NCBI GenBank assembly: GCA_002839645.1
Contig: PGYL01000021.1
Location: 26,962 to 62,888, forward strand
From: Methanomicrobiales archaeon HGW-Methanomicrobiales-2
GTDB lineage: Archaea > Halobacteriota > Methanomicrobia > Methanomicrobiales > Methanoculleaceae
DNA: 35,927 bases
Direction: 5' to 3'
Numbering within the stretch: position 1 is the first letter of the stretch; each line of letters begins with the position of its first letter. The translations under genes were made by a program, and so were the position numbers. This document shows, piece by piece, positions 17,962 through 27,393 of the stretch. The notes below the pieces were generated by a model that did no database searches, was not told the origin of the DNA, and saw nothing but the letters and a program-made list of their open reading frames with translations.

Positions 17962-18918
17962 ATGTTGTATTCGCACGACTCTACTGACCCATCAGGAGGA
18001 ACGATCATCGGAGATGTCATTGTAGCACACGACCTGGAGAAGCGGTTCGAGGACCTCGTCGCGGTCGACCGGATCACCTTCCAGGTCAGGGAAGGAGAGG
18101 TCTTCGGGTTCTTAGGCCCAAACGGGGCGGGAAAGACGACGACCATGAAGATGATCCAGTGCACCTCCCCTAAGACCGGCGGCACCCTCGAGGTCCTTGA
18201 CATGGACGTGAATACCCACCAACGGGAGATTAAGGGCCACCTCGGCGTGGTGCCGCAGGAGACCAACCTCGACCCGGATTTTTCAGCCTACCGGAACCTT
18301 CTGGTCTACGCCCGTTACTTCGGCATCCCGAAACGAGAGGCGGAGCAGCGGGCGGAAGAACTCCTGGCGTTCATGCAACTCGAAGAGAAACGGGACGTCC
18401 TGATCGACAAACTCTCGGGCGGGATGAAACGACGGCTGATCATCGCCCGGGCCCTGATCAATACACCGGAACTGCTCATACTCGACGAACCCACCATCGG
18501 GCTCGACCCACAGGCACGGCACCTGATCTGGGAGACGCTCCGGAGGCTCCAGGCAGAAGGAAACACCCTTGTCCTGACCACGCACTACCTCGACGAAGCG
18601 GAGCGCCTCTGCGACCGGCTGGTGATCATGGATCACGGGAAGATCCTCGTCGAGGGCGCCCCGGCAGACCTCATCCGCGAGCATGCCGGGAGCGATGTCG
18701 TCGAAGTCGAACGGACAGAAAAGGTGATCGCTCACCTGACCGGGCTTGGCGTGAAGTACGACCTTGCCGGCGGTCTGCTCCAGATCTTCACGGACCGTCC
18801 CCACGACGTGGCGCGCGAACTGATCGAGGTCTGCCAGCACGAGGCGGCGGTGACGGTTCGCCCGGCAACCCTTGAGGACGTCTTTCTGCGGCTGACCGGC
18901 CGGAGACTGCGGGAGTGA
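17962..18918 (+). CDS. ABC-2 type exporter, ATP-binding subunit
   Basis: 318 residues of the DrrA/NodI-like class that energises drug, lipid or polysaccharide export. Walker A GPNGAGKTT (52-60), Q-loop VVPQETNLDPDFSAYRNL, signature LSGGMKRR, Walker B ILDEPTIGLDP and the switch His in LTTHYLDEAERLCDR are all present. The C-terminal 80 residues match the extension seen in this class, ending ATLEDVFLRLTGR. The start is uncertain: ATG 17962 gives an atypical 20-residue lead (HDSTDPSGG), whereas a strong GGAGGA lies inside the frame at 17995-18000 with only ATC codons in frame behind it. The permease gene follows after three bases, forming a two-gene operon. Confidence 0.92.
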   Translation: MLYSHDSTDPSGGTIIGDVIVAHDLEKRFEDLVAVDRITFQVREGEVFGFLGPNGAGKTTTMKMIQCTSPKTGGTLEVLDMDVNTHQREIKGHLGVVPQETNLDPDFSAYRNLLVYARYFGIPKREAEQRAEELLAFMQLEEKRDVLIDKLSGGMKRRLIIARALINTPELLILDEPTIGLDPQARHLIWETLRRLQAEGNTLVLTTHYLDEAERLCDRLVIMDHGKILVEGAPADLIREHAGSDVVEVERTEKVIAHLTGLGVKYDLAGGLLQIFTDRPHDVARELIEVCQHEAAVTVRPATLEDVFLRLTGRRLRE

Positions 18919-18921
18919 GCG

Positions 18922-19689
18922 ATGCTCGACATCTCCGGCAGGGTCTGGAGCGTCTGGCGGAGGAACTGGGACGCCTTCCTCAGGACCTACCGGGTAAACT
19001 TCATCCCGCCCTTCGTCGAACCGGTGCTCTACCTCCTGGCGCTGGGGTTCGGCCTCGGGACGTATATCGAGGCCGTCGACGGCATACCCTATCCCGTCTT
19101 CATCGCACCGGCGCTTGTCTCGATATCGGTGATGTATTCGGCCTTCTTTGAATGCACCTACTCGTCGTTCGTCCGGATGTACTACCAGAAGACGTTTGAT
19201 GCCATCATTGCAACGCCGGTCAGCATCGATGAGGTGATCGCCGGGGAGATGCTCTGGGGCGCCACCCGGGGAATGATCTACGCGGCACTGATGCTCCCGG
19301 TGCTCCTTCTCTTTAACGTCGTGACCATGCCGTCGTCCCTGCTCCTCATCCCCTTCGCGTTCCTTGCCGGGCTCCTCTTTGCGGGCATCGCGATGTGTTT
19401 CACGGCGATAACACCGAGCATCGACGCGCTGAACTACCCATCCTTCCTCTTCATCACGCCGATGTTCCTCTTCTCGGGGACGTTCTTCCCGCTCGACCTG
19501 CTTCCGCAGCCGATCCAGTACTTCGCCCTTGCGGCGCTCCCGCTCACGCACGTTGTCAGCATCAACCGGGCGATCACGCTTTCGGCGTTTTCACCGTTCA
19601 ACCTCTTTAACCTCGCCTGGATCGTGGTGGTGACTGCGCTCTTCTTCGTGCTTGCTATCAGGCTGATGAAGAGGCGGCTTATCGTGTGA
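18922..19689 (+). CDS. ABC-2 type exporter, permease subunit
   Basis: 255 residues with about six hydrophobic segments and the ABC-2 arrangement: a cytoplasmic amphipathic start (RNWDAFLRTYRVNFIPPFVEP), helix 1 with YLLALGFGLG, the FECTYSSFVRMYYQKTFDAIIATPVS segment, paired helices in the middle, the re-entrant stretch FLFSGTFFPLDLLP and a final helix with basic end MKRRLIV. It pairs with the ATPase directly upstream to form the exporter. Substrate not deducible; no biosynthetic or resistance gene lies adjacent. The next genes downstream are on the opposite strand. Confidence 0.92.
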   Translation: MLDISGRVWSVWRRNWDAFLRTYRVNFIPPFVEPVLYLLALGFGLGTYIEAVDGIPYPVFIAPALVSISVMYSAFFECTYSSFVRMYYQKTFDAIIATPVSIDEVIAGEMLWGATRGMIYAALMLPVLLLFNVVTMPSSLLLIPFAFLAGLLFAGIAMCFTAITPSIDALNYPSFLFITPMFLFSGTFFPLDLLPQPIQYFALAALPLTHVVSINRAITLSAFSPFNLFNLAWIVVVTALFFVLAIRLMKRRLIV

Positions 19690-19766
19690 CCGCTCCGCGC
19701 GGCCGGTAACGTAGAGTAGATGCTGCGGGCAGCGCAATTACGAAAGGGCACCATACGGGCGCGTGC

Positions 19767-19773
19767 AAAAAAA
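19767..19773 (-). terminator. T-tract terminator behind the zinc-protein pair
   Basis: Seven A residues on the plus strand (seven T on the minus strand) lie three bases beyond the stop of the 19777-19953 gene. Confidence 0.5.
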
Positions 19774-19776
19774 GGG

Positions 19777-19953
19777 TTAGAATCTGGGTTTTCTGTACTT
19801 CGGGAGGCAGTCACGGCAATAGACAGGCCGACCCTCGGTAGGCTTGAAAGGAACTTCGCACTCTTTGCCGCAGTCGGAACAAACGGTCTTTGTCATTTCG
19901 CGGGGGCGGTCGTCGAACGAACGGGGGCCCCTGCTTGGGTATCTCTCTTCCAT
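19777..19953 (-). CDS. CxxC-x17-CxxC zinc-binding small protein, copy A
   Basis: 58 residues, found by translating the minus strand by hand. It begins MEERYPSRGPRSFDDRPREM, carries CSDC (Cys25, Cys28) and CRDC (Cys46, Cys49) with exactly 17 residues between pairs, plus an extra Cys32, and ends PKYRKPRF. This is the pattern of the CxxC-x17-CxxC family of tiny proteins common in archaea and candidate bacteria; the role is unknown, though the basic ends and zinc knuckle suggest nucleic-acid binding. A TATA-like element at 19974-19984 on the minus strand is about 25 bases before the ATG. The neighbouring gene at 19994-20170 is a close duplicate. Confidence 0.9.
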   Translation of the reverse strand: MEERYPSRGPRSFDDRPREMTKTVCSDCGKECEVPFKPTEGRPVYCRDCLPKYRKPRF

Positions 19954-19993
19954 TGGAATTCACTCACTTTGTTGGATTATATTCACAGACGAC

Positions 19994-20170
19994 TCAGTAA
20001 CGGGGTTTCCTGTGCTTCGGGAGGCAGTCGAGGCAGTAGACCGGCCGACCCTCCGTGGGCTTGAAAGGAATCTCGCACTCTTTGCCGCAGTCGGAACAGA
20101 CTGCCTTGTGGAACTCGCGGGGGCGATCCTGGAACGAGCGGGGACCCCGGCTCGGATATCTCTCATCCAT
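19994..20170 (-). CDS. CxxC-x17-CxxC zinc-binding small protein, copy B
   Basis: 58 residues, begins MDERYPSRGPRSFQDRPREF and ends PKHRKPRY, with the CSDC/CLDC pairs at the same positions as copy A. The two share most of their residues without gaps, and the DNA is also similar, so this is a recent tandem duplication. Positions 19-22 (EFHK versus EMTK) and the first acidic residues differ. Upstream are TATA-like elements (20217-20226) and a perfect inverted repeat (20182-20198) that may be an operator. Function unknown; presumed zinc-ribbon, possibly RNA- or DNA-associated. Confidence 0.9.
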   Translation of the reverse strand: MDERYPSRGPRSFQDRPREFHKAVCSDCGKECEIPFKPTEGRPVYCLDCLPKHRKPRY

Positions 20171-20442: not shown

Positions 20443-20511
20443 ATGGCAGACGATGACCAATCTCTTTTGCAATCCGGCAGAACGCCGGTCCTATCCCGGA
20501 GACGGGAGTAG
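20443..20511 (+). other. 22-codon open frame ending in TAG, in frame with the fusion gene
   Basis: ATG at 20443 opens 22 codons (MADDDQSLLQSGRTPVLSRRRE) to TAG at 20509. The next in-frame ATG is the start of the fusion gene at 20527, after five sense codons. A TATA-like element near 20407 would start transcription just before this ATG. It may be a leader peptide or the lost N terminus of the larger protein; translation is unproven. Confidence 0.35.
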
Positions 20512-20526
20512 GGGGAATGGCTCAGC

Positions 20527-22518
20527 ATGACCGACGATATCCAGACAGACGAACCCCCTGATAGCAGAACCAAAGGAAAACACCGGGACAGGAGGACGAT
20601 CGGTCCGGTCCCGAACCTTGAAGAGTATGTGAAACCCGACTGGTGGAGGGGCATCTTCAATCGCCTCTACTTAAAGACCGACGGCGATGTCGTCGACGAT
20701 CAGCATATCACCGAGAGTGAGATCGACCGGATCACTCAGGTCTTAAACCTTCAGTCCGATGCGAAGATCCTCGACCTCTGCTGCGGCCAGGGAAGGCACA
20801 CCCTCGAACTCATGCGCAGGGGTTACAACGCCGAAGGCCTCGACCAGTCACACTACCTGATCCAGCGGGCACGGTCGACCGCGAAGAAGGAGGGGCTCTC
20901 GGTCCGGTTCCGGGAGGGAGACGCGCGCCGTCTGCCGTACCGCACCGACACCTACGATGTCGTCCTCGTCCTCGGGAACAGCTTCGGCTACTTTGATTCC
21001 GTTGAGGAGGACCTGCGGATCCTCACCGAACTCCGGCGCATCTTGAAACCCTGGGGCCGGGTGCTCCTGGATGTGGCCGACGGCGAGTACTTAAAAGAGC
21101 ACTTTCAGGCGAGGTCGTGGGAGTGGATCGACGATGCGATGTTCGTCTGCCGCGAGAGATCCCTTTCGCTCGATGAACAGCGCCTGATATCCCGGGAAGT
21201 GATCACCGATGTCGAGAAGGGCGTCGTAGCTGACCAGTTCTATGCCGAACGCCTCTACACCCCCGAGGCACTCCGGCGGCTCCTTGAGAAGGCGGGCTTC
21301 TCCGGTATCACCTTCCACAAGATCGACACCGAGTCGCAGCGAAACCAGGACCTCGGCATGATGGAACGCCGTCACATCGTCACCGCGGTCCTCAAGAAGG
21401 AGTGGTCGACGACGAAGACGAGAGGTCAGGAGAGAGCAAAACACGTCGCGGTGATGCTCGGCGACCCGGCCAAGCCCGACGCCTTAAAACCATCCTGCAC
21501 CTTCGACGACGACGACTTCTACACCATCGACCAGATGAAGGCGGCCCTCCGGGAACTGGCGGGATACCGGTTCACGTTCCTCTGCAAGCACGACACAATG
21601 ATCCAGGACCTCCCGAAACTGAAGGGGAAGGTGGACTACGTCTTCAACCTCTGCGACGAGGGTTTCAACAACGACCCGAGGAAAGAACTCCACGTCCCGG
21701 CGCTCCTGGAGATGTTCGATATCCCGTACACGGGGTCCGGACCGCAGTCGCTTGCGTTCTGCTACGACAAGTCGCTCGTGCGCGGCGTCGCGAAAGAGAT
21801 GGGGATCCCGGTGCCCGACGCCTGCTTCATCACTCCCGGAGACCGCACCTACGATGTCGGGATGAAACTCCCGGCGATCGTCAAACCAAACGCAGGCGAC
21901 TCCTCGTACGGCATCACGCAAGAGAGCATCGCCCACACCATCGAAGAACTCTCCGATGTCATCAACACGCTCCGGACGAAGTTGGGATACGACCGCTCGC
22001 TCCTTGTCGAGGAATTCCTCACGGGAAAAGACATCAGCGTCGGCATCATCGGGAACCCGGCGGGATACTGCACGGTGCTTCCTATCATCGAGGAGGACTA
22101 CTCCGCGCTGCCCCCGGAACTTCCCCGGATCTGCGGCTACGAAGCAAAGTGGCTCCCGGACTCGCCGTACTGGAAGATCGTATCGAAGCCGGCGGAGCTC
22201 CCCGAGGAGATCGAGAAAGTGATCGTGCAGTGCTGTCTTGCACTCTTCAAGCGCCTGGAGTGCCGCGACTACTGCCGGTTCGACTGGCGCTTAGACGAGC
22301 ACGGCAGTCCGAAACTCCTTGAGGTCAACCCGAACCCCGGCTGGTGCTGGGACGGCCACCTCGCAAAGATGGCAAAGTACGCGGGCCTCTCATACCCCGA
22401 GATGCTCGGCCGGATCCTCAAAGCCGCGGAAGAACGGTTCGGTATGGAGCAGGAGACCGGTGCGCGGGAGGGCGAGAAGGATCCTCTCCCGTTCGACCTC
22501 ACCCGGCAGGAGGCCTGA
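20527..22518 (+). CDS. Fusion of SAM methyltransferase and D-Ala-D-Ala-ligase-like ATP-grasp enzyme
   Basis: 663 residues in two enzymes. Residues about 40-290 are a class I methyltransferase: SAM motif LDLCCGQG (82-89), acidic end of strand 2 (GLDQSH), GDARRLPYRTDTYDVVL and the post-motif RILKPWGRVLLDVADG. Residues about 305-640 match D-alanine-D-alanine ligases: a Rossmann-like start (HVAVMLGDP), YTGSGPQSLAFCYDK, KPNAGDSSYGI, VEEFLTGKDISVGIIG and the metal-binding DWRLDEHGSPKLLEVNPNPG. Such ATP-grasp enzymes join a carboxylate to an amine through an acyl-phosphate. This archaeon should have no murein, so the substrate is unlikely to be peptidoglycan; a methylated dipeptide, osmolyte or cofactor is conceivable. 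ATG 20527 has AGGGGG twelve bases upstream. No obvious operon partner. Confidence 0.92.
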   Translation: MTDDIQTDEPPDSRTKGKHRDRRTIGPVPNLEEYVKPDWWRGIFNRLYLKTDGDVVDDQHITESEIDRITQVLNLQSDAKILDLCCGQGRHTLELMRRGYNAEGLDQSHYLIQRARSTAKKEGLSVRFREGDARRLPYRTDTYDVVLVLGNSFGYFDSVEEDLRILTELRRILKPWGRVLLDVADGEYLKEHFQARSWEWIDDAMFVCRERSLSLDEQRLISREVITDVEKGVVADQFYAERLYTPEALRRLLEKAGFSGITFHKIDTESQRNQDLGMMERRHIVTAVLKKEWSTTKTRGQERAKHVAVMLGDPAKPDALKPSCTFDDDDFYTIDQMKAALRELAGYRFTFLCKHDTMIQDLPKLKGKVDYVFNLCDEGFNNDPRKELHVPALLEMFDIPYTGSGPQSLAFCYDKSLVRGVAKEMGIPVPDACFITPGDRTYDVGMKLPAIVKPNAGDSSYGITQESIAHTIEELSDVINTLRTKLGYDRSLLVEEFLTGKDISVGIIGNPAGYCTVLPIIEEDYSALPPELPRICGYEAKWLPDSPYWKIVSKPAELPEEIEKVIVQCCLALFKRLECRDYCRFDWRLDEHGSPKLLEVNPNPGWCWDGHLAKMAKYAGLSYPEMLGRILKAAEERFGMEQETGAREGEKDPLPFDLTRQEA

Positions 22519-22723: not shown

Positions 22724-23638
22724 ATGGCCGATGAATCGTATCGGACCGCAACGGTCCAGGGCAGGGAGGTCCCCTACGATCCGGAGCAGTTACGGAAGAT
22801 CAGCGAGCACCCGTGCTACTCCGATAAAGCGTGCCACTCCTTCGGGCGGTGCCACCTCCCCGTCGCTCCGAAGTGCAACATCCAGTGCAACTACTGCATA
22901 CGCGACTTCGACTGCGTGAACGAGAGCCGGCCGGGCGTGACGAGCAGGGTTCTTCCTCCGGAGGAGGCGCTCGGCCTTGTGCGGAAGGTCATGCAGGAGC
23001 ACCCGTACGTGAAGGTGATCGGCATCGCAGGACCGGGCGAGCCGCTTGCAAACCCCGAAACGTTCGAGGCGTTGCGGCTGGTCCACGAGGAGTTTCCGCA
23101 GTTGATCATGTGTCTCAGCACGAACGGCCTCATGCTCCCTGAGTCGATCGAGGAACTGGCGAAGTACGATGTCGGGAACGTCACGGTCACGCTCAACGCC
23201 ATCGACCCTGCGATCGGGGAGAAGATCTACTCCTGGGTCGAGTACAACGGGAAGAAATACCACGGACGCGAGGCGGCGGAACTCCTCCTCTCCCAGCAGT
23301 TGAAAGGGATCGAGATGGCGGTTGCAAAGAAGATGCTCGTCAAGATAAACACCGTCTACATCCCCGGGGTCAACGACGAGCACATCCCCGAGATCGCAAA
23401 GAAGGCCGGCGAGATGGGAGCGTTCACCTTCAACGTCATCCCGCTCATCCCGCAGTACAAGTTCGCCTCCATCACCCCGCCAACGCCAACGGAGAAACGG
23501 GAGATGCAGGACCGGTGTGCTCAGTACATCAAGCAGATGCGTCACTGCGCACGCTGCCGGGCGGACGCGATCGGGAAACTCGGTCAGGACGTTCAGTCCT
23601 GTGTCTACCAGCAGATGAAGGATGAGAAGGCAAAGTAA
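22724..23638 (+). CDS. nifB: NifB-type radical SAM protein
   Basis: 304 residues, the length of stand-alone archaeal NifB. Signature parts: HPCYSDKACHSFGRCHLPVA (29-48), the radical-SAM cluster CNIQCNYC (Cys51, 55, 58), FDCVNESRPGVTS, GIAGPGEPLANPETFEA, LCLSTNGLMLPE-type strand, VTVTLNAIDPAIGEKIY, and the C-terminal CARCRADAIGKLG (Cys275, Cys278). In nitrogen fixers NifB fuses two 4Fe-4S clusters and inserts carbide to make NifB-co, the precursor of the nitrogenase cofactor. The extra N- and C-terminal cysteines that hold the substrate clusters are all present, so it looks functional. No nifHDKEN lies in this window; in some archaea nifB is unlinked. A T-tract at 23646-23651 follows. Confidence 0.88.
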   Translation: MADESYRTATVQGREVPYDPEQLRKISEHPCYSDKACHSFGRCHLPVAPKCNIQCNYCIRDFDCVNESRPGVTSRVLPPEEALGLVRKVMQEHPYVKVIGIAGPGEPLANPETFEALRLVHEEFPQLIMCLSTNGLMLPESIEELAKYDVGNVTVTLNAIDPAIGEKIYSWVEYNGKKYHGREAAELLLSQQLKGIEMAVAKKMLVKINTVYIPGVNDEHIPEIAKKAGEMGAFTFNVIPLIPQYKFASITPPTPTEKREMQDRCAQYIKQMRHCARCRADAIGKLGQDVQSCVYQQMKDEKAK

Positions 23639-24967: not shown

Positions 24968-25755
24968 CAGAGGGGCCGGGAGTCCGGCGGCCCCTGGCTA
25001 TGACCTGTAATGGGCGGCGGGGTATAAGGTCGTTCCGAAACCCGCGGCCCGGCAAAACTCGCGATAAACCCGTTCTCCTGCATCCCGAGCACCTCCTCCG
25101 GCGTCCCGTCGGCCGCCACCCGCCCTTCCTCAATGAGGCAGAGGCGGTCTCCGAGTTCGAGGGCATCGCGGGGGGTGTGGGTGACGATGATGCAGGGGAT
25201 GCCGGCATTCCGGATCCGGTCGCGGAGTTCCCTGCGCATCGCAGCTTGAGCCCGCATATCGACGGCGGCGAGCGGCTCGTCGAGGAGGAGGAGTTCCGGC
25301 TCGAGCACCAGCGCACGGGCGAGAGCCACCCGCTGCCGCTGGCCTCCCGAGAGCCGGCCGACGTTGACGCCGGATAGGTCGGAGAGGTTCATTGCGCGAA
25401 GTTGCTCCGCCACGGTGTCGGCTATCTCCTGTCGCGGGACCTTCCGGCACCGGAGGCCGAACGCCACGTTCTCGAAGACCGTCATGTGCGGGAAGAGGGC
25501 GTAGGACTGGAAGAGGTGGCCGATGTTCCGGGTCTCCGCGGGGACGTCGATCAGTTTCTCACCCGAGAAGAGCGTCCTGCCCGCGAGGGTGATCTCGCCC
25601 CCGTCAGGCGTGAGGATGCCGGAGATCAGGTTCAGCACTGTGGACTTGCCCGCCCCGTTCTCCCCGACGAGGACAAGGGTCTCCCCGCACCGAACCGAGA
25701 ACGTGATGTCGAGGACGAAATCACGCAGTTGCCGGACGGCATGGACGGAGAGCAT
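24967..25755 (-). CDS. modC: Molybdate ABC transporter, ATP-binding protein (short ModC)
   Basis: 262 residues. Walker A GENGAGKST (31-39), Q-loop LFQSYALFPHMTV (81-93), signature LSGGQRQR (135-142), Walker B LLLLDEP (155-161) and switch His193 are intact. The C-terminal regulatory Mop/TOBE domain of longer ModC proteins (about 350 residues) is missing; instead there is a Pro-rich tail of about 35 residues. Gene order with modA and modB and direct overlaps identify it as the energising subunit of molybdate import. The first codon overlaps the modB stop by one base. Tungstate transport (Wtp/Tup type) cannot be excluded from this subunit alone. Confidence 0.92.
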   Translation of the reverse strand: MLSVHAVRQLRDFVLDITFSVRCGETLVLVGENGAGKSTVLNLISGILTPDGGEITLAGRTLFSGEKLIDVPAETRNIGHLFQSYALFPHMTVFENVAFGLRCRKVPRQEIADTVAEQLRAMNLSDLSGVNVGRLSGGQRQRVALARALVLEPELLLLDEPLAAVDMRAQAAMRRELRDRIRNAGIPCIIVTHTPRDALELGDRLCLIEEGRVAADGTPEEVLGMQENGFIASFAGPRVSERPYTPPPITGHSQGPPDSRPL

Positions 25756-26597
25756 CAGATGTTCCTCCGGGTGACGATCTGCACCGCAGCAATCACAGCA
25801 AACGATATCACGACAAGGACGATTGCAAGGCTGATTGCGGCGGTGAGGTCACCCTGCATCGTCGTATAGATCGCAAGCGGCATCGTCTGGGTCCGGCCCT
25901 GGAAGTTCCCGGCGAACATGATCGTGGCACCGAACTCCCCGAGCGCCCGGGCAAACGAGAGTATCGCCCCGGAAACGAGCCCGCTCCACGCGAGCGGGAT
26001 AGTGATCCGGAGGGCGACGGTCGTGGGGGATGCACCGAGGGTCCGTGCCGCGTCCTCGTAGAGACGGTCGATCGCCTCGAAACTCGCCCTCGCCTGCCTG
26101 ATGTAGAACGGCGAGGCCACAAAGACCTGGGCCAGGATCACCGCGACCGTGGTGAAGGCGACGGGGATACCAGACCCGTCGAGGTACTGCCCGACCACGC
26201 CCCGGCGGCCGAAGGCCATCAGCAGCGCGATGCCCGCCACTGCCGGCGGCAGGACGATGGGGAGGTCGGTGAGGGTATCGACGATCTCCCGGCCGCGGTA
26301 GTCACACCGGGCGTTCACCAGGGCAAGCGGCGTCCCGAAGAGGACGACGATCACCGTGCTCACCGTCGCGGTAGCAAGGGAGAGGACCAGGGCGTCGAGC
26401 ACCACCGGGTCGGCAAGCGAGCGGAAGAACGCCTCCGGCGATATGCGCAGGAAGAGCGAGGCGACCGGCAGCGTGACGAAGAGGAGAAAGAGCGCAAGAA
26501 GGACGGTGAGGAGGAGGGTGAGGGGCGCCCTCCAAAACCGCGCCCGACCGGCGTGCCGGAGCACTTCACGTTCATGCCAAAATCGGGTCAAAACCAT
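25755..26597 (-). CDS. modB: Molybdate ABC transporter, permease
   Basis: 280 residues with about six membrane helices. The ABC-permease coupling loop is EDAARTLGASPTTVALRITIPLAWSG, and ALGEFGATIMFAGNFQGRTQTMPLAIY is the strongly conserved ModB/CysT-type segment. DLPIVLPPAVAGIALL is another typical stretch of this group. It overlaps the end of modA by 26 bases and modC by one base, so the three are translated together. The protein forms the homodimeric membrane channel through which ModA delivers oxyanion. Confidence 0.94.
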   Translation of the reverse strand: MVLTRFWHEREVLRHAGRARFWRAPLTLLLTVLLALFLLFVTLPVASLFLRISPEAFFRSLADPVVLDALVLSLATATVSTVIVVLFGTPLALVNARCDYRGREIVDTLTDLPIVLPPAVAGIALLMAFGRRGVVGQYLDGSGIPVAFTTVAVILAQVFVASPFYIRQARASFEAIDRLYEDAARTLGASPTTVALRITIPLAWSGLVSGAILSFARALGEFGATIMFAGNFQGRTQTMPLAIYTTMQGDLTAAISLAIVLVVISFAVIAAVQIVTRRNI

Positions 26598-27393
26598 ATT
26601 CCGTCAGGATGGCGCTGCCGTCCGGGCCCCGGACGAATGCTATGAACGACTCTGCTTCGGTCTTGCCCGGTGACTCCGCAAGGATGCCGAGCGGATAGGT
26701 GGCCATGACGTTGTACTCGGACGGGATATCGATCCGGGTCACCTTCGTCAGGTCGTCTTTTGAGACGTCCGATTTGTAGACGATCGCCGCATCCGCCTCG
26801 CCGAGCGCCAGCTTGGGCACCACGGAGCTCACTGCTGTCTCCTCGGAGACAACATTGGCCATCACGGCATCCTTGTATGCCTGACCGTAGGCTGGATCGG
26901 CGGCCATCTTCTCGAGCATCTGCCGGGTATAGTCGCCGAAGGGGACGTCTTTGGTGCCGATGACGATCTTTGTGCCCGGCTTTGCCAGGTCGGCGAGACC
27001 GGCGATCCCTGCCGGGTTATCGGCCGGAACGATCAGGGCCAGACTGTTCCCGAGGAACGGCGTCACGGTATCGTTGTCCATGAACCCGGCGTCCTGAAGA
27101 GCCTGCATGTGCTTTGTACTCGCGGAGACGAAGATATCGGTGTTCGCTCCCTGCTCGACCTGGGTGCGGAGGGTCTGCGAGCCGTCGAAGACGAAGTCGA
27201 CCTTGATGTTCTCGTTCTGTGCCTCGTAGGCTTTGCCGATATCCGTGAAGGCTCCCGTGAGCGATGCGGCCGTAAAGACGGTCAGGGTTGTCTGCTCAGG
27301 GACTTCGACGGCGGTTGTACATCCGGTAACGAGAAGACCGGCGATGATCAGAAGGCATACGGCAACAAGCGTTGTCGGGGTTGACGTTTTCAT
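26572..27393 (-). CDS. modA: Molybdate-binding lipoprotein of the ABC transporter
   Basis: 273 residues. N-terminal signal with lipobox VTGC (Cys25), then the periplasmic-binding fold: TVFTAASLTGAFTDIGKAYE, VDFVFDGSQTLRTQVEQGANTDIFVSAS, and the later segments DVPFGDYTRQMLEKM and ADAAIVYKSDV, all characteristic of ModA rather than the WtpA tungstate proteins. It captures molybdate (or tungstate) outside the membrane. Start at 27393 has AGAGGTG six bases upstream. The promoter holds a TATA box at 27426-27436 and an inverted repeat at 27440-27454. Mo or W is needed by formylmethanofuran dehydrogenase, formate dehydrogenase and nitrogenase. Confidence 0.94.
   Translation of the reverse strand: MKTSTPTTLVAVCLLIIAGLLVTGCTTAVEVPEQTTLTVFTAASLTGAFTDIGKAYEAQNENIKVDFVFDGSQTLRTQVEQGANTDIFVSASTKHMQALQDAGFMDNDTVTPFLGNSLALIVPADNPAGIAGLADLAKPGTKIVIGTKDVPFGDYTRQMLEKMAADPAYGQAYKDAVMANVVSEETAVSSVVPKLALGEADAAIVYKSDVSKDDLTKVTRIDIPSEYNVMATYPLGILAESPGKTEAESFIAFVRGPDGSAILTEYGFDPILA

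Follow-up and report, generated by a model that had tools for sequence, protein, structure and literature searches.

A single-chain methyltransferase and Ddl-like ATP-grasp ligase of methanogens and diverse bacteria, a candidate source of a small methylated metabolite

What might a ligase that resembles the D-Ala-D-Ala ligases (Ddl) be doing, joined in one chain to a SAM-dependent methyltransferase, in a methanogenic archaeon that is expected to lack murein? The question is raised by a gene in the window, by which we mean the whole stretch of 35,927 nucleotides analysed here (contig PGYL01000021.1 of Methanomicrobiales archaeon HGW-Methanomicrobiales-2). A sequence-only reading of this DNA had described one chain in which both halves keep their full motif sets, and that description holds: the open reading frame lies where it was placed and the motifs quoted for it were all found, as laid out below.

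20527..22518, + strand: fusion gene, 663 aa, with an ATG start; N-terminal SAM methyltransferase and C-terminal Ddl-like ATP-grasp ligase
20510..20516, + strand: putative ribosome-binding site AGGGGGA, 10 bases 5' of the ATG, predicted from the sequence
20590..21414, + strand: methyltransferase domain with cap, residues 22-296 (Pfam, AF2 model, PDB neighbours, invariant residues)
20770..20793, + strand: SAM-binding motif LDLCCGQG, residues 82-89
21415..21438, + strand: variable linker with 0 invariant residues, its length near-constant across homologues
21439..22446, + strand: Ddl-like ATP-grasp ligase domain, residues 305-640 (Pfam, Foldseek, invariant residues)
21883..21915, + strand: ATP-grasp loop KPNAGDSSYGI, residues 453-463
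22150..22152, + strand: W542 in YEAKW, at the position of E. coli DdlB Tyr216; invariant in 85 homologues
22315..22359, + strand: LLEVNPNPGWCWDGH, residues 597-611, with the Mg ligands E599/N601; Gly610 replaces Ddl Ser281

The ATG is preceded by a comparable G-rich stretch in most of the seven homologues of the genus that are shown. Pfam matches Methyltransf_25 at residues 81-177 (72 bits against a cut-off of 27) and Dala_Dala_lig_C at residues 423-631 (91 bits against a cut-off of 24), and the LLEVNPNPG motif occupies residues 597-605. The AF2 model of the methyltransferase domain has a pLDDT of 91.4 and a pTM of 0.88; the full-length model has a pTM of 0.55, at which the relative placement of the two domains is uncertain.

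A join created by sequencing or assembly, which the sequence-only reading had named as a possible refutation, can be rejected, as the same single frame recurs across hundreds of genomes (at least 507 candidate loci). It is open, with no internal stops, in 29 of the 35 genomes of the genus, the exceptions being a few copies at contig edges or with frameshifts, and the fusion layout is retained in all full-length homologues among the matches listed. An alignment of 85 homologues contains 112 invariant positions, 48 of them in the methyltransferase and the other 64 in the ligase; the linker has none. Between W293 and V309 the gap measures 13-16 residues in 84 of the 85. Both halves are under purifying selection, with dN/dS ratios of ~0.06-0.15 in each within the genus. 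Decayed copies exist as well: G023 has a frameshifted copy, G687 and G697 probably have frameshifted ones, and the copy in G047 has an internal deletion. Two 205-aa frames in genomes of the genus (G026:C20:41219-41827 and G028:C58:8340-8948) retain only fusion residues 1-174 and 628-663 and share one join, that is, a common internal deletion remnant. The frameshifted, deleted and remnant copies lead us to regard the gene as useful but dispensable. Copy number can also rise, as in the methanogen genome G128, where two full copies (L067 and L068) lie ~18.7 kb from each other and a third one, which is split, is found at G128:C1:8771-9771.

The C-terminal half had been taken for a Ddl-type D-Ala ligase, an identification that did not survive comparison with Ddl. 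The fold is that of Ddl (Foldseek TMt ~0.8 to Ddl structures), and so are the residues that handle ATP, Mg and the acyl phosphate, K97, K144, K215, R255, D257, E270 and N272 in E. coli DdlB numbering: in the 85 homologues of the fusion K415, K453, K541, R584, D586 and N601 are invariant and E599 is nearly so (E in 84, D in 1). The D-Ala pocket, represented in E. coli DdlB by E15 of the ERExSL motif, H63, Y216 and S281, is replaced in 85 of 85 homologues at all four of the positions compared. The ERExSL motif with its E15 is absent, NLCDEG stands where Ddl has LHGxxGEDG (the H63 loop), and W542 and G610, the latter likewise invariant in the 85, take the places of Y216 and S281. Scores against the NCBIfam Ddl models fall far under their cut-offs (132 bits against 243, and 121 against 246). 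Careful tree building places 16 of 16 fusion ligases in one clade with support of 100/100, apart from 11 separate Ddl (100/100) that were taken from the same bacterial genomes, and this clade groups with stand-alone Ddl-like ligases; a second match exists in 12 of the 16 carrier genomes, of which the 11 bacterial ones entered the tree. On these sequence comparisons we judge that the ligase half is not a D-Ala-D-Ala ligase.

The source genome agrees with the expectation that the archaeon lacks murein. Searches that included positive controls gave no match in the window's genome to the Mur ligase middle domain (PF08245) or to the alanine racemase C-domain (PF00842), and a search of it for a second Ddl-like protein found none, the other PF07478 matches being weaker; neither Mur ligases nor a supply of D-Ala, as marks of a murein or pseudomurein setting, came to light. 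A true D-Ala-D-Ala (or D-Ala-D-X) ligase that serves a cell-surface polymer, itself a target of the methyltransferase, might be argued from the Ddl fold, the Pfam match and the shared K, R and Mg-site residues, but the lost pocket, the separate clade, the low scores, the separate Ddl of the 11 bacterial carriers and the lack of any Alr or Mur match in the window's genome make it highly improbable, and the Ddl/murein reading was rejected. With it the puzzle of an archaeal murein disappears, and a broader one takes its place: what is the product of a near-invariant two-in-one enzyme in the microbes of anoxic habitats?

That puzzle is not peculiar to archaea or to methanogens, as had been supposed, since bacteria carry the fusion alongside their own Ddl and account for the majority of the non-Methanoculleus homologues among the matches listed. 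Within the order, ligase matches occur in 54 of 232 genomes, including 29 of the 35 of the genus, and sit in frames of 600-750 aa except in G106 and in a small number of copies that are broken or fragmentary; named Methanoculleus records are ~80-91% identical to the fusion protein. The G106 locus (L077:697-2844) encodes a related Ddl-like ligase with an M20-peptidase-like domain fused at its C-terminus. The fusion is also present in 51 of 112 genomes of the Methanosarcinaceae, an assignment that rests on PylS matches over the cut-off in 8 of 8 members tested. A scan of 84,980 species genomes yielded at least 507 confirmed relatives or candidate loci. Among the matches listed the carriers are mostly uncultured bacteria and archaea of more than 20 phyla, and identity in other phyla is typically 60-68% across the full length. 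Eighty of the at least 507 relatives include Planctomycetota, Thermodesulfobacteriota, Atribacterota, Zixibacteria, Cloacimonadota, Hydrogenedentota, Nitrospirota, Spirochaetota, Chloroflexota, Asgard archaea, Jordarchaeia and Methanophagales; some taxon names depend on the binning of MAGs and could be erroneous, those of the Nitrosotalea and Patescibacteria rows being examples. A quick tree puts most Methanomicrobiales together in a single clade (16 rows, support 98). Eight sequences, mostly from a different family of the order, make up a second clade far from the first, and the remaining phyla for the most part lie on short, poorly resolved branches, a shape that fits repeated horizontal transfer. 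Carriage by viruses was rejected: phage matches cover the ligase part only, at <30%, and a search for relatives in viral contigs found none. A link to mercury methylation, prompted by the spread through anaerobes, was likewise rejected: the hgcA cap-helix motif is found mostly in a family (f5) that has no copy of the fusion, and it hardly occurs in the genus.

Whole families and genera of methanogens lack the gene, and the fusion is therefore not a step in the synthesis of a methanogenesis cofactor. The sequence-only reading had taken consecutive ligation and methylation on one substrate as a possible new peptide-like metabolite or cofactor step; we still prefer the two reactions on one small metabolite, and a core cofactor step has to be given up.

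The methyltransferase half offers the more specific chemical clues. It has the Rossmann fold of a class I methyltransferase with the SAM site intact (D83, C86, G87, G89 and D106 are invariant). Its closest sequence in the PDB is 9ri2, with 106 bits over profile positions 15-239 against 79 bits for the next, and of the five printed PDB alignments only this one extends through the cap. Foldseek names 9ri2 as NmbA, the bacillithiol N-methyltransferase, which is thus the closest solved relative with the cap aligned, at ~23% identity. The other near folds (CypM, CcbJ, GSMT and TylM1) are mostly N-methyltransferases, and the C-methyltransferases SeMT and PsmD fall in the same fold group. N-methylation is the most likely chemistry, as judged from relatives at ~20% identity. 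As a separate observation, the PADLOC model mad2 (the methyltransferase part of MADS defence) matches residues 42-205 of the fusion protein, in its methyltransferase half, at 2.8e-18, a match that probably reflects only the shared methyltransferase fold.

The methyl group that NmbA transfers goes to the nitrogen of the cysteine in bacillithiol (PMC12719100). NmbA is defined there by >=25% identity, >80% of the length, a similar length and bshA-C in the genome, and the fusion protein lies outside that definition at ~23% identity and 663 aa as against 266 aa. The product might still be an N-methylated low-molecular-weight thiol, made when the ligase adds a thiol amino acid, such as cysteine, for N-methylation by the methyltransferase, much as NmbA methylates bacillithiol. 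The cap-inclusive match to NmbA would suit such a thiol, as would the wide occurrence of the fusion in anaerobes and the absence of the BSH pathway from Archaea (PMC12719100). We nonetheless consider it unlikely, since a cysteine-specific residue was not found in the fusion, identity to NmbA is only 23% and NmbA-like methyltransferases may take other acceptors (PMC12719100).

Gene neighbourhoods contribute little. No neighbouring gene family is common to the sampled loci, Pfam finds no family in more than three of 143 immediate neighbours, and the proportions of immediate neighbours that share the strand of the fusion (34 of 76 upstream, 47 of 81 downstream) carry no signal, for which reasons an inference from operons or neighbours was rejected. 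The usual clue to a pathway is thereby removed, and the fusion looks like a one-gene pathway that draws on common precursors. In the window the gene is followed directly by a NifB-like radical SAM protein (22724-23638, + strand; 374 bits, above the nifB cut-off), whose downstream position is common to some Methanomicrobiales only, and then by a modABC-like transporter (24970-27393, - strand); upstream are a NodI/NodJ-like ABC exporter pair (17962-19689, + strand) and a 114-aa ORF (19720-20064) that matches no family. A CitMHS-type transporter precedes the fusion in Methanosarcina-like loci and is close by in one other archaeal locus.

Some ATP-grasp ligases tag macromolecules, and a RimK-like scheme, in which the ligase would tag a protein, peptide or RNA with an amino acid and the methyltransferase would modify the same macromolecule, could also appeal to CypM and the daptide methyltransferases, whose substrates are peptides. 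The neighbourhoods examined contain no linked precursor peptide or partner, and both sequence and fold point to Ddl and Ddl-like ligases as the nearest ATP-grasp relatives; we hold this scheme to be improbable. A compatible solute or metallophore (an N-methylated dipeptide or a betaine amide) would accord with the betaine-making GSMT of Methanohalophilus among the methyltransferase fold neighbours and with a patchily distributed, dispensable gene. It too seems a rather unlikely product, since no neighbouring transporter or regulator is conserved, the CitMHS-type transporter being restricted as described, and the fusion is not bound to a single habitat.

The nearest stand-alone ligases, at 33-38% identity, occur as tandem pairs. 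Such pairs of Ddl-like ATP-grasp ligases are found at L178:8321-11989 (G459) and L177:7262-10918 (G588), and further ones in G328, G396, G362, G393, G267, G491 and G624. Both L177 and L178 have a KamA-type (lysine 2,3-aminomutase-like) radical SAM aminomutase ahead of the pair, one ligase of L178 is fused to a GNAT acetyltransferase, and a plasmid relative sits among 2,3-diaminopropionate genes. The tandem pairs look like an undescribed two-ligase pathway, perhaps to an acetylated beta-amino-acid peptide. By analogy, these settings of amino-acid ligases with unusual amino acids hint at the substrate class of the fusion.

We favour, with a probability of roughly 0.6, a self-contained bifunctional enzyme that combines amide formation on an amino-acid-like substrate with N-methylation in the making of one small metabolite. 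The ATP-grasp domain would use ATP to phosphorylate the carboxylate of an amino-acid-like substrate and then join the resulting acyl phosphate with an amine to form a dipeptide or amide, with neither substrate expected to be D-Ala; the N-terminal domain would move a methyl group from SAM, most likely onto an amine in that substrate or in the product. The result would be an undescribed N-methylated peptide-like compound, obtained from ordinary precursors through a single gene and useful, though dispensable, to organisms of anoxic habitats. We infer the amide formation, the methylation at N rather than at O or C, the action on one molecule and the order of the steps, and it is the fusion that suggests consecutive reactions on one substrate; ligation and methylation could act on different molecules. 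A search of the full-text literature (subscription papers and preprints lay outside its scope) found no characterised homologue, and the review of fusions PMC11237513 does not mention a D-Ala ligase. Since the fusion is kept nearly unchanged in hundreds of carriers and no characterisation of it was found, its product is probably an undescribed small methylated molecule. More tentatively, and as a possibility that we do not expect to hold in full, the gene might be a one-gene route to an undescribed N-methylated amide, perhaps a low-molecular-weight thiol or a redox- or metal-binding compound, that has spread horizontally among anoxic-habitat microbes of more than 20 phyla.

An identity of ~65% across methanogens, Asgard archaea, planctomycetes, deltaproteobacteria and atribacteria must reflect a specific role of the enzyme, yet the searches turned up neither a function nor a pathway or product for it. 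As the enzyme would be self-contained, a single purified protein could reveal a metabolite common to much of the anoxic subsurface, and the presence of the fusion in a genus identified as Methanosarcina, which is genetically tractable, makes gene deletion possible. Labels of "D-alanine--D-alanine ligase" in archaea should not be read as proof of D-Ala or murein.

Among known systems, Ddl (TIGR01205) shares with the fusion the ATP-grasp fold, the Lys, Arg and Mg-site residues and the YEAK loop, whereas the fusion has the E15/H63/Y216/S281 pocket replaced, stands in a clade of its own, has a methyltransferase partner and coexists with true Ddl in bacteria. The stand-alone Ddl-like pairs (L177, L178) resemble it in ligase sequence (33-38% identity) and in the NxAEG and (Y)ExKW motifs, but consist of two tandem ligases with GNAT or other fusion partners, in a clustered pathway and with no methyltransferase. 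Glycine sarcosine N-methyltransferase of Methanohalophilus (PDB 5gwx/5hij) has the methyltransferase fold, N-methylates an amino acid and occurs in a methanogen, yet it lacks a ligase, is ~20% identical and differs in the cap. NmbA (PDB 9ri2) is likewise a class I methyltransferase, can be followed in sequence through the cap at ~23% identity and has in common with the fusion a likely methylation of an amine; it is a single domain that acts after BshA/B/C, whereas the methyltransferase of the fusion is joined to an ATP-grasp ligase.
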